Shown: positions 3,476 through 44,519 of the stretch, piece after piece
How the letters are laid out: each line of letters starts with the position of its first letter
How positions within the stretch are numbered: the first letter of the stretch is position 1
Assembly (NCBI GenBank): GCA_902610815.1
Contig: CACLXG010000001.1
Location: forward strand, 140,775-204,774
Origin: an uncultured Candidatus Actinomarina sp.
GTDB taxonomy: Bacteria; Actinomycetota; Acidimicrobiia; Actinomarinales; Actinomarinaceae
Reading direction: 5' to 3'
Length of the DNA stretch: 64,000 nucleotides
Position numbers and translations under genes: made by a program
The notes under the pieces: model-generated
Seen by the model: the letters and a program-made list of their open reading frames with translations, nothing else
Told to the model about the DNA's origin: nothing
The model's database searches: none

Positions 3476-4579
3476 ATGAATGCATTTTTAACAATTGCTT
3501 TATTGACACTTTTTGTAGTTTTACATGAATTAGGCCATTACATATCAGCAAAAAGATCAAAAATTGCAGTTTCTGAATTTTTTGTTGGTTTTGGACCAAA
3601 ATTGTTTTCGATTAAAAAAAATAATACTGAATATGGACTTAAAGCACTTCTTCTTGGAGGTTATGTAAAAATTCCTGGTATGGATGAGAATGAATCTGTT
3701 GAGGGTTATGAATCAGAAGAATTGTTTCATACTGCTTCTTGGACAAAAAAGCTATACATTGCTTCATCAGGAATTATTGTAAATTTTGTTTTAGCTTGGT
3801 TGATACTCTTTTCAATATTTACTTTTTATGGAGTTGAGCAACCAACTTTGCAAATTGAAACTATTGGAGTATCTTCAATAGTTTCATCTTCAGAGGCACC
3901 ATCTTCTAAAGCAGGTCTGAAAGAGGGGGACATAATAACAAGTTTTAACGGAAACCAAGTTGCAAACTGGAAAGAACTGGTTGGTTTTATTGAGAAAAAT
4001 CCCAATTCTCAAGTCACTATTGGATATACAAGAAATGGGCAAAGCTATATAACTACTGCAGTTTTAGAGTCAAGAAAAGTTGCAAATAAAGAATCTGGTT
4101 ATTTAGGTGTCTCACCTTCTATAGAAAATCAAAAAATGGGAATAATCGATTCAATTTCCGCAACAACTTTAGTTGAAATTGATATGACCAAAGCAGCTGT
4201 AGAAGGAATATTTACCTTATTTAGTCCTCAAAATTTACAGACACTTTTAGGAACCTACACTGGGGAAGTTGTTCCAGACGAAGCAAGACCACTTAGCCCA
4301 ATTGGATTAGCTCAAGCAGGCAACCAAATTGCCGAAGGTGGATATGTAAATTTATTCACTCTTTTAGCTTTTGTAAATATTTTTCTTGCTGTTTTCAACT
4401 CTATACCACTCGTGCCATTAGATGGAGGAAGGGTAGTTCTAGCTTTATATGAAGGGATAACCGGTAAAAAAATACCTGATAGAAAACTTTATCCTCTTGC
4501 TGCAGTTGTAATCGTTATTTTCGTTTTTTTAGGAATCACAGCCTTTTACCTAGATATCACGCAACCAATTAGATTATGA
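3476..4579 (+). CDS. rseP: Site-2 intramembrane zinc metalloprotease RseP/RasP
   Basis: RseP-type proteases cut membrane-anchored substrates such as anti-sigma factors within the bilayer. The zinc site HELGH lies at residues about 18-22 in the first membrane helix, and the third ligand region, PLDGGR, is near residue 320 before the last helices. A PDZ domain (S-K-A-G-L-K-E-G-D and following, about residues 145-205) lies between, as expected. The length of 367 aa fits the family. The TGA stop overlaps the ispG start in ATGA, so ispG is coupled. A leaderless-type promoter precedes it. Confidence 0.95.
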   Translation: MNAFLTIALLTLFVVLHELGHYISAKRSKIAVSEFFVGFGPKLFSIKKNNTEYGLKALLLGGYVKIPGMDENESVEGYESEELFHTASWTKKLYIASSGIIVNFVLAWLILFSIFTFYGVEQPTLQIETIGVSSIVSSSEAPSSKAGLKEGDIITSFNGNQVANWKELVGFIEKNPNSQVTIGYTRNGQSYITTAVLESRKVANKESGYLGVSPSIENQKMGIIDSISATTLVEIDMTKAAVEGIFTLFSPQNLQTLLGTYTGEVVPDEARPLSPIGLAQAGNQIAEGGYVNLFTLLAFVNIFLAVFNSIPLVPLDGGRVVLALYEGITGKKIPDRKLYPLAAVVIVIFVFLGITAFYLDITQPIRL

Positions 4580-11227: not shown

Positions 11228-12161
11228 ACTTTTTGAAGATATTAAAGATTCTTCTAATTTAATAACAGGTCATATAAACCCTGACGGCGATGCTTTAGGT
11301 TCTGCCTTAGCTTTTAAATTAATACTGGACAGCAAAGGCGTAGATTCCGACGTATCTTTTGATATGAAAGGTAATGTTCCCTCTAATTTAAATCATTTAC
11401 CTATTAAATTAATTATGGATAAGCCAAAGGAAAATTATGACAATGTATATGTTTTTGATTGTGGCAACTCAGAAAGACTCGGAGATTTAGAAGATTTAGC
11501 GTTAAATTCTAAAAGAGTCATTGTAGTAGATCACCATATCAATCCTTCCTTTGGTGATATTCAGATTATTGATTCTAATGCTGCTAGCACTACACAAGTA
11601 CTTTTCAGAGAAATTCTTTCTGCAAACATAGACATTGACAAGAATATCTCTAATTGCCTTATGACAGGATTAATCACAGATACAGGTAGGTTTCAATACT
11701 CAAATACAGATAATGAGGTATTTGAAATCGCATCAAAACTAATGTTAAGTGGTGCTGAGCTTACAAGTATTAGTGATAACATTTATGGGTCTATTCCTAT
11801 GAATGCAATCAAGCTACAAAGTGAAGTTTTAAACAGAATTGAATTACATGAAGAAGAAGAATTAGTTGTTTCGTATGTTTTACAAGAAGATTATCTCAAT
11901 TACAATATCGAATCTTCTGAAACAGATTTTTTAATTGATTCAATTAGATTGGTGAAAGAATCAAGTGTGGCTTTATTGTTAAAAGAACAACAAGATAAAT
12001 CATTTAAAGGAAGCTTAAGGTCCCGTAATGCATTAGACGTTCAACAGATTGCTTCTCTGTTTGGTGGTGGAGGACACAAAGCAGCTTCAGGATTTTCGTC
12101 AAACTTAAGTATGGAAGAAATAAAAAATAAAGTAAAGAATGCAATTAAGTCACAAATCTAA
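11220..12161 (+). CDS. nrnA: DHH/DHHA1 phosphoesterase, NrnA-like
   Basis: NrnA-type enzymes degrade short oligoribonucleotides and, in some species, pAp. The 313 aa show the DHH domain (GHINPDGDALGSALA near residue 17, VVDHH near residue 102) and the C-terminal DHHA1 motif GGGGHKAASGF near residue 281. Metal-binding Asp and His residues are all present. The position between rbfA and truB is the normal one for this gene. It overlaps rbfA by 8 nt and truB by 23 nt. The exact substrate (nanoRNA, pAp or c-di-NMP breakdown products) cannot be read from sequence. Confidence 0.92.
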   Translation: MSKLFEDIKDSSNLITGHINPDGDALGSALAFKLILDSKGVDSDVSFDMKGNVPSNLNHLPIKLIMDKPKENYDNVYVFDCGNSERLGDLEDLALNSKRVIVVDHHINPSFGDIQIIDSNAASTTQVLFREILSANIDIDKNISNCLMTGLITDTGRFQYSNTDNEVFEIASKLMLSGAELTSISDNIYGSIPMNAIKLQSEVLNRIELHEEEELVVSYVLQEDYLNYNIESSETDFLIDSIRLVKESSVALLLKEQQDKSFKGSLRSRNALDVQQIASLFGGGGHKAASGFSSNLSMEEIKNKVKNAIKSQI

Positions 12162-13020
12162 CTTTTATCTTTTAGACAAACCAAAAACATGGACCTCTCA
12201 GGATTTGTGTACTAAATTAAAAAAGAGTTTTAAATTTAAAAAAGTAGGACACTCAGGCACCCTAGATCCAAACGCTGATGGTTTAATGCTTCTTGCAACT
12301 AATGGGTATACAAAATTATTTGATTACATCGATAACACAAATAAAACTTATAAAGTAATTGCAATATTAGGTTACTCTTCTCCAACTCTTGATGTGGACT
12401 CAGAAATTACAAAACATGATGATATAAGTGCAGAGAAGTTAAAACCTCAAATACAAGAATTTCTAACTAAGTTACTTGGCGAGTCTACCCAGACTCCACC
12501 AATTTATTCAGCAATTAAAGTAAAAGGAAAACGATTATACAAATATGCACGTCAAAATCAAGATGTAGAAATTCCTGATAGAAAAATATTTGTTGGTAGC
12601 ACTGATTTGTTAGAAGTAAAAGATAATAAGGTTACTTTTGAGATAACAGTAAGTAAGGGAACATATATCAGAAGTATTGTTCAACAATTAGGTGAGTATG
12701 TTAATACTTATGCAATAGTAGAAACTCTTACAAGGACAGCCATTGGTAATTTAAATATTGATAACAAAAATCTGAATACAAATGTTGAAGATTTAAATTA
12801 TAACTCAAAAATAATGTCAATAGATTGGGCAGAAGTTATAAATTTACCAAAAATTGAACTGGATGTTGAAATGAATGAAACAATAAAGAATGGTCAACTT
12901 CTCCCTAGAAATATGTTTTCAAATGAAGAAAATTATATAATATCTATCGAGAACAATATTGTTGCAATTTATAAACCTTTTAATGAGAAATATTACAAAC
13001 CAGAAAAAGTACTCGTATGA
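12139..13020 (+). CDS. truB: tRNA pseudouridine(55) synthase TruB
   Basis: TruB makes pseudouridine 55 in the T-loop of tRNAs. The catalytic motif GTLDPNADG with its Asp is near residue 41, followed by the family segments KTYKVIAILG, TQTPPIYSAIKVKGKRLYKYAR and SKGTYIRSI. The 293-aa length fits. ATG 12139 overlaps the preceding gene by 23 nt and leaves only about seven residues before the conserved F-Y-L-L-D-K-P start, so it is the likely initiation site. It ends in an ATGA overlap with ribF, the usual truB-ribF coupling. Confidence 0.95.
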   Translation: MQLSHKSNFYLLDKPKTWTSQDLCTKLKKSFKFKKVGHSGTLDPNADGLMLLATNGYTKLFDYIDNTNKTYKVIAILGYSSPTLDVDSEITKHDDISAEKLKPQIQEFLTKLLGESTQTPPIYSAIKVKGKRLYKYARQNQDVEIPDRKIFVGSTDLLEVKDNKVTFEITVSKGTYIRSIVQQLGEYVNTYAIVETLTRTAIGNLNIDNKNLNTNVEDLNYNSKIMSIDWAEVINLPKIELDVEMNETIKNGQLLPRNMFSNEENYIISIENNIVAIYKPFNEKYYKPEKVLV

Positions 13021-42836: not shown

Positions 42837-43973
42837 TTATTCGTCGTAAAGACCGAATTCTTCAGCAGCTTGTTTAACTACATCAAATTCTGAATTGTCT
42901 GCAGGAACAACATCTGTCCAGCCATAAATTTCATCCATTACAGCAGCACCTTCTTCGGTAGCCATGTAATCAGACAAAATTTGATATATCTGTGATTTTA
43001 TATCTTCTGGAAGATCGCTTCTTACAGCAACAACGTCATTTGGAATTTCAGCTGAAATACCAATAGCTATAACTTTTTCACCAACATCAGGATTGGTTTT
43101 TCTTAAAGTTCTTCTAGCATCGTCATAAGTAACACCAAACTTAGCATCACCGTTATACAGACCTGAAATAACTCCATCATGTGAACCAGCAAAAACTTGG
43201 GTAATATCATTTTGATAATCAATTCCCATATTTTTTAGCTGTAAAGAAGGATATAGGTATCCAGATGTTGAACCTTCTTCAACAAATAATACTTTTTCAC
43301 CTCTTAGTACATTTAAATCAGCTTCACATGCATATCCTGGGCTGACTGTTACGTCAACACCATCAATATTTCTTACTTCTGGAATCTTTCCGTCATCACC
43401 AAAGGTCCAACCAACTTGTAATGCTTTCACATCAGGAGATTCTGTTTCAGAACCTAAAATTAGTTGTGGAACACCATCAATATTTTCAAATGCTCCAATT
43501 ACAGGTGGTGAATCACAGACACTTGGATCAGTTGTCCAAAAATTAGCATGGTATGAACCAGAGCCGTATCTTACAACTTTTGCAATTGCCTCAATTCTTG
43601 TTGGGAACACATTTAATGCATTAACATAACCTAATGTGTTGAATGCACCAATGTCTGCTTGACCAGATCCCATTGCAACCAATAATCCTGAAAAGTCACT
43701 AGTTACAAATCCTTCAACTTCAATTCCAAGACCATCTGTTAAAACTTTCATTAATGGTTTGATATTGTCTTGAAGATCAGCTTGTTCTGCACTTGGAATA
43801 AAGCCGAAAGTTATTTTATCTAGTGTTTCAGCAACAGTAGTAGCTGGTGAGTCTAGAGTTTCAGCCTCTTCAACAACTGCAGGTTCTTCTACAGTCTCTT
43901 CTTCAGCACTACCGCCACAGGCAGCAAAAGCCAAAGATAAAACAAGTAGAAGTATAAATGATTTTTTAGTCAT
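42837..43973 (-). CDS. phnD: PhnD-type phosphonate/phosphite substrate-binding lipoprotein
   Basis: The 378-aa protein has a lipoprotein signal (F-I-L-L-L-V-L-S-L-A-F-A-A-C) and an acidic linker, then the PhnD-type binding fold: I-T-F-G-F-I-P-S-A-E-Q, L-L-V-A-M-G-S-G-Q-A-D-I-G-A-F near residue 110, and V-E-E-G-S-T-S-G-Y-L-Y-P near residue 238, where the S-T-S motif of PhnD relatives binds the anion. It captures the substrate outside the membrane and passes it to PhnE. A GGAGGA Shine-Dalgarno precedes the ATG, in contrast to many neighbours. No C-P lyase or phosphite dehydrogenase gene is visible nearby, so the anion imported is open. Confidence 0.88.
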   Translation of the reverse strand: MTKKSFILLLVLSLAFAACGGSAEEETVEEPAVVEEAETLDSPATTVAETLDKITFGFIPSAEQADLQDNIKPLMKVLTDGLGIEVEGFVTSDFSGLLVAMGSGQADIGAFNTLGYVNALNVFPTRIEAIAKVVRYGSGSYHANFWTTDPSVCDSPPVIGAFENIDGVPQLILGSETESPDVKALQVGWTFGDDGKIPEVRNIDGVDVTVSPGYACEADLNVLRGEKVLFVEEGSTSGYLYPSLQLKNMGIDYQNDITQVFAGSHDGVISGLYNGDAKFGVTYDDARRTLRKTNPDVGEKVIAIGISAEIPNDVVAVRSDLPEDIKSQIYQILSDYMATEEGAAVMDEIYGWTDVVPADNSEFDVVKQAAEEFGLYDE

Positions 43974-44036: not shown

Positions 44037-44519
44037 TTAAAAATTTGTTAAATCAATTTCTCCATATGTACGAGAAATTACTTCACCATTGGTGTCAAGC
44101 ACTATAGAAATTGGTTGACCAACAATCTTAAAATAGTCTCGTAGCTCAGGAGTTGAGAAACCAATTTTAAGCTGGCCATTAAGATTCTCATTCACCCATT
44201 CCATAGTTGGTTCGTACTGACTGTGTGCTAGAGCAATTACATCATACTCATCAGAAATGTTAGCTAATTCTTTTTCTATGACAGGTAACTCCCGCCTACA
44301 CACACCTCAGTAATCAGCCCAAAAAATTATGATTGTTTTTTTATCTGTATAGTTCTCAGTAACAACAGCTTCAGATGTATCAACATACACAAAAGAAGTT
44401 TCAGTAATAGCATTTGTAGATTCTGACACTGCTTCTTGTAATTTACTTTCTGGTTCTTCACCAACTCCATACGAACAAGAAATAAATAATATGATAAATA
44501 TTGGAAAGTATTTTTTCAT
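44037..44519 (-). CDS. Putative selenocysteine-containing TlpA-like lipoprotein (UGA at first catalytic Cys)
   Basis: Read through the TGA at 44309-44307, this is a 160-aa lipoprotein (signal about residues 1-15, lipobox F-I-S-C) with a TlpA/redoxin domain: I-I-I-F-W-A-D-Y, then UGA (residue 71), then G-V-C-R-R-E-L-P. In TlpA-like proteins this position is the first Cys of W-C-x-x-C, so UGA sits exactly on the nucleophile, giving U-G-V-C. The frame continues without break to a normal C-terminus (F-S-T-P-E-L-R-D-Y, V-G-Q-P-I-S-I-V-L-D-T-N-G). TATGAT ends 7 nt before the ATG, a leaderless promoter. A GC-rich patch follows UGA. Alternatives are a pseudogene or sequencing error. It would act outside the membrane; phnD lies 63 nt downstream on the same strand. 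Confidence 0.65.
44276..44309 (-). promoter_or_regulatory. Candidate SECIS-like hairpin region after the UGA codon
   Basis: On the minus strand the 24 bases after TGA hold 14 G/C and use rare G-rich codons (AGG CGG GAG). Two weak folds are possible: GTAGG with CCTGT around CGGGAGTTA, or GTA with TAC around GGCGGGAGT, each with G in the first two loop positions. Bacterial SECIS elements lie in this position inside the coding sequence. The fold is marginal by eye. Confidence 0.3.

Follow-up and report, generated by a model that had tools for sequence, protein, structure and literature searches.

In the genome of Candidatus Actinomarina, an ultra-small uncultured marine actinobacterium, a gene for a thioredoxin-like lipoprotein is interrupted by a TGA codon. 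The gene lies in a stretch of 64,000 nucleotides, which we call the window. The question is whether this TGA ends a short gene, is an accident of sequencing or mutation, or is read as an amino acid. An earlier note had described two frames joined by the TGA in the active-site context of a TlpA protein, and it had proposed a candidate new selenoprotein. The coordinates, the frame and the flanking residues of that description all match our results. Our answer, with a probability of roughly 95%, is that the gene codes for one working selenium protein, not for two broken pieces, and that the TGA is read as selenocysteine (Sec). Only the word "new" has to be qualified, as regards the kind of protein, as discussed below.

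The TGA codon at the active site

The gene and its internal codon are located as follows:

44037..44519, minus strand: gene for a probable UxxC selenolipoprotein with thioredoxin fold (ResA/TlpA-like); 160 residues, ATG to TAA, one internal TGA
44307..44309, minus strand: in-frame TGA, probable Sec71, first residue of U-G-V-C; TGA in all genus and in most class sequences read

The frame starts with the ATG at 44519, reaches the TGA at 44309-44307 and, without a shift of frame, runs on through 89 more codons up to the TAA at 44037. The TGA is flanked by FWADY and GVCRRELP. If it is counted as one residue, the product has 160 amino acids and its active site is U71-G-V-C74. This position is the first catalytic site of a ResA/TlpA-like lipoprotein, and it aligns with the catalytic Cys of homologues. 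The part which follows the TGA evolves as protein, with a median dN/dS of about 0.18, and about 0.06 for the closest pair shown: as judged from these ratios, the codons 3' of the TGA are under purifying selection.

The protein and its probable function

The N-terminus of the protein has the following feature:

44475..44519, minus strand: lipoprotein-type signal (MKKYFPIFIILFIS-C15), predicted from the sequence; Cys15 is the likely lipidation site

Cys15 is invariant in an alignment of 10 sequences, which includes a distant relative from the class. The lipobox-like end is FIS-C15, with Phe at position -3. The Sec/Cys site 71, C74, E77 and P136 are also invariant in this alignment, which means that the protein has the Glu typical of TlpA as well as the Pro in the loop of the active site. 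The nearest NCBIfam models are ResA, then StoA and TlpA, none of them over its cut-off. The score with ResA (PRK03147) is 36.6 bits, while the curated cut-off is 170, so the protein should be described as ResA-like, not as ResA. An AlphaFold model has a mean pLDDT of 79.9, about 90 over the domain. Its closest solved folds are those of ResA; DsbE-type and TlpA structures are also found. The invariant Cys15 and the match with the ResA fold agree with the earlier proposal of an extracytoplasmic selenium redox lipoprotein in a streamlined actinobacterium, and the source is indeed a Candidatus Actinomarina with a genome of 1.10 Mb.

ResA of Bacillus shares with this protein the fold, the membrane-anchored extracytoplasmic location and the CxxCxxE pattern, with the Glu at the same offset. 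On the other hand, the window protein has Sec in the place of the first Cys, and its ResA score is far below the curated cut-off. The anchor of ResA is a transmembrane helix; the window protein would have a lipoprotein-type anchor instead.

By analogy with what is known of ResA and TlpA, the job of the protein is likely to be the reduction of extracytoplasmic disulfides. We consider it rather probable that it is a membrane-anchored extracytoplasmic thiol/selenol-disulfide reductase; its substrate, its partner and the direction of electron flow are what we infer from the modelled fold only. The source genome codes for one CcdA/DsbD-type membrane protein. A main role in protection linked to peroxide or methionine sulfoxide, instead of general disulfide reduction, is possible although we regard it as unlikely. 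Pfam finds Redoxin and AhpC-TSA in addition to Thioredoxin, and the TlpA-like paralogues without TGA which the same genome has (C4:24903-25244 and C1:377860-378198) could do the ordinary reductase duty, but the closest solved folds and models are those of ResA, TlpA and StoA, with their C-x-x-C-x-x-E pattern.

A hairpin downstream of the TGA

A candidate signal for the insertion of Sec is found shortly after the TGA:

44280..44296, minus strand: candidate bSECIS hairpin; 6-bp stem, loop AGUUA (44290-44286), 16 nt from UGA to loop

The layout in the genus is UGA, a 10-nt spacer, six pairs and a loop AGUUR. It fits the bacterial SECIS model as quoted in PMC13188914, and the 16 nt between UGA and loop are the lower limit of the published spacing model. 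The stability of the window hairpin, taken alone, is no more than moderate (-7.9 kcal/mol, z = -1.95). The stem is complete, with its six pairs, in 30/30 genus sequences and in 29 of the 33 class sequences with TGA. The hairpin is lost in the Cys homologues: in all 7 which were read, just 2 to 4 of the six pairs form. Among 30 distinct sequences, 98.3% of the pairing cells are paired, against 48-61% for slid controls, and double compensatory changes are found in 3 of the 6 pairs. For example, where a pair has changed from C-G to G-C, the protein has E instead of R/Q and L instead of V. The Glu within the hairpin is encoded by GAG in 28/28 genus genes, compared with 72 of the 377 Glu codons elsewhere in the gene. 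The pattern of pairing and covariation is plain in these alignments; the p-values are indicative only, because the counts treat related sequences as independent.

These results bear on whether the TGA could be a real stop, with a short lipoprotein upstream and a separate thioredoxin-like fragment downstream. This is very unlikely. There is a GTG in the downstream piece, one codon after the TGA, as a separate fragment might have. Nevertheless, the active-site pair spans the TGA, the fold is continuous across the site, some homologues have Cys at this position, and a covarying hairpin is found at the place expected for a bSECIS. A split gene would need none of these features.

Selenocysteine machinery and genetic code

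The source genome has 1,100,974 bases and is 93.7% complete; the GC content of the window is 32.6%. The genome contains selA (E 3.8e-116), selD (E 5e-112) and a tRNA-Sec with anticodon UCA (75.4 bits). Next to selA we find the fourth component:

L003 1501-3120 (G000:C2:42357-43976), minus strand: selB of Actinomarina; full length, under the NCBIfam selB cut-off

The selB product is full length when compared with the solved SelB structure 4zu9 (E 7e-43), and it contains the winged-helix domain of SelB. Its score is below the curated NCBI cut-off (193 vs 242 bits), and automatic annotation may therefore overlook the use of Sec by these bacteria. All four components whose search had been recommended in the earlier note are therefore found. 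The presence of SelB and tRNA-Sec in a genome is the signature of Sec decoding (PMC1273633), and the source genome has both, plus SelA and SelD. Of 42 genomes of the genus, many of them incomplete, 34 have a selA which exceeds the cut-off and 40 have a tRNA-Sec.

The selD gene of this genome (L001, about 1500-2541; G000:C3:142387-143304) codes for a selenoprotein as well, with a TGA in the place of the catalytic Cys codon (GSG-U-ACK). A stable hairpin is found 3' of this TGA. The G which the bSECIS model requires in the loop is missing there, whereas the TlpA-like gene has it.

It is very unlikely that the TGA is read as a different residue, either as Trp by near-cognate decoding or because the code has been reassigned. 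The frame is open past the TGA, as such a reading demands. However, TGA is the stop of 4 of the 60 long ORFs in the window, including RseP (3476-4579) and TruB (12139-13020), and the in-frame extensions past these four stops have just 3-28 codons. TGA is thus a real, if uncommon, stop in the window, as had been claimed, and a reassigned code is excluded. Besides, homologues have Cys at the site, not Trp, and the full Sec machinery is present.

TGA and cysteine forms in related genomes

An ortholog is found at E 1e-38 or better in 29 of 35 genomes of the genus, that of the window and 28 others, and each copy has exactly one TGA. The six genomes with no match are 60-82% complete. A profile search finds the gene in six further genus genomes, all of them with TGA; in one of these (G059), the copy is listed with an extra TAA and contains ambiguous bases. 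Whether relatives have TGA or a Cys codon at this position had been suggested as a check: the codon is TGA in 30/30 genus sequences read, and no Cys form is present among the genus orthologs found. The sequences read share the motif FWA[DE][YW]-TGA-x-x-C-x-x-E-L-P. Orthologs are found at 43-85% identity, and the named records are mostly Candidatus Actinomarina, Actinomarinales and OCS155-cluster genomes, some of them single-cell genomes. The earlier note had named a base-call error or a TGA private to this strain as a refutation. Such an error, or a nonsense mutation which would make the gene a pseudogene, can practically be dismissed, because all genus orthologs have the same TGA in dozens of separately assembled genomes, including single-cell ones, and the region downstream of it is under purifying selection.

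A record titled Euryarchaeota archaeon MED870 (L151, PAEE01000009.1) also carries an Actinomarina-type copy of the gene. It is probably mislabelled or a mixed bin.

The situation is more varied in the class. We have read 40 class sequences at the level of single bases: the codon is TGA in 33 of them and TGC in 7. In the other families of the class, a form with one TGA is found in 65 of the 72 matching genomes. When an even sample of the phylum is searched at E 1e-18, the TGA form is found in this class only. In the class outside the genus, tRNA-Sec is present in 57 of the 65 genomes with the TGA form, compared with 2 of the 7 with the Cys form (Fisher p = 0.0016). No tRNA-Sec match was obtained in 8 class genomes with the TGA form; half of them are <90% complete, and the filters are strict.

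The Cys forms do not appear as one group in the tree. Well-supported branches require three changes or more, and three of the Cys forms lie within groups of Sec forms. This scattered distribution suggests that Sec has been replaced by Cys in the class. Two of the seven Cys sequences (G038 and G048) sit on very long branches, and they may represent other paralogues. The branch which joins the genus to the other families is also very long (3.98 changes per column), so a single continuous Sec-containing ancestry of the genus and the other families is likely but unproven.

Genes near the selenoprotein gene

The next gene downstream codes for a transport protein:

42837..43973, minus strand: PhnD-type ABC substrate-binding protein, 63 nt downstream of the selenoprotein gene; TIGR01098 over cut-off

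This gene is found beside the selenoprotein gene in most genus loci, but not in L019, L037 and L040. Its similarity to a putative selenate-binding family is weak. We have set aside a link between the selenoprotein and this transporter, because PhnD-type families match better and the two genes are not adjacent in some relatives. As a separate observation, the PhnD-type gene is 91-95% identical in distant Actinomarina (L034, L038, L039 and L046), while the flanking cinA is only 52-55% identical. Such a difference suggests that phnD has been recently exchanged between Actinomarina lineages.

In three class genomes outside the genus, the neighbourhoods present no shared or informative conserved context. 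In one of the three, L175, the gene is near CcmH/CcmF-type cytochrome c genes, weak evidence when taken alone.

Comparison with known selenoproteins

Selenoproteins of the TlpA-like superfamily (cd02966) with a UxxC motif have already been listed: they appear as "Thiol-disulfide isomerase-like protein" in the catalogues from marine metagenomes (PMC13188914, PMC1088965). Trx-like UxxC groups are also listed (PMC2398784). The kind of protein is therefore not new, although the Sec reading proposed in the earlier note is supported. The Sargasso Sea thiol-disulfide isomerase-like family (PMC1088965), which consists of a few metagenomic sequences, has the same UxxC and TlpA-like fold, comes from marine bacteria and has a downstream bSECIS hairpin. 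The comparison is by motif and superfamily. The description used here gives neither a host lineage nor a lipoprotein context for the family.

Two other families should be considered. The Rcas_1661 family (NF041057, the DsbG-like row of PMC13188914) is also a thioredoxin-like lipoprotein able to carry Sec. One class relative reaches 26.6 bits with this model, whose cut-off is 190, and the window protein has no match. The ResA-like WAxxUGC motif protein (NF041054) also has Sec in its active site, but the motif is UGC there and UxxC here, and the score is 21 bits where the cut-off is 300. According to an NCBIfam search, the window protein is not covered by any curated NCBI model.

None of the open papers searched joins Actinomarina with a selenoprotein, or Actinomarinales with selenocysteine; the one which names Actinomarina and selenium is about selenate reduction in a sister order. 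A class-wide selenolipoprotein and a complete Sec system in Actinomarina thus appear to be unreported in these papers.

Proposed mechanism

The sequences show the machinery, the conserved TGA, the covarying hairpin, the purifying selection and the fold class, whereas the insertion of Sec, the lipidation, the direction of electron flow and the substrate are inferred. SelA would make Sec-tRNA(Sec) with the selenophosphate provided by SelD. SelB, carrying Sec-tRNA(Sec), would bind the mRNA hairpin at 44296-44280, and the ribosome would thereby read the UGA at 44309-44307 as selenocysteine. After export, the product would receive a lipid at Cys15 and would be held by this anchor on the outside of the cytoplasmic membrane. 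In that place, thiol/selenol-disulfide exchange would be carried out by Sec71 and Cys74, within a thioredoxin fold of the ResA/TlpA type. Most likely, the protein would reduce oxidised extracytoplasmic proteins, and the CcdA/DsbD-type membrane protein of the same genome is the most likely source of its electrons. Sec in the place of Cys is expected to give a faster attack and a site which is easier to recover from over-oxidation.

Significance

An annotation which does not consider Sec would split this gene into two fragments. In a wider context, we find it somewhat more probable than otherwise that these are class-wide, uncatalogued extracytoplasmic UxxC selenolipoproteins: they would be a main selenium user of one actinobacterial class, kept even in Actinomarina, a streamlined ocean genus of 1.1 Mb, while in other parts of the class Sec would have been repeatedly replaced by Cys and the hairpin lost, mostly where tRNA-Sec is missing. 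Since one enzyme exists there in related Sec and Cys forms, the class can serve as a natural experiment. A complete selenocysteine pathway has been kept in a genome of about 1.1 Mb, which implies that the benefit of selenium redox chemistry outweighs its cost and that Actinomarina populations depend on dissolved selenium.
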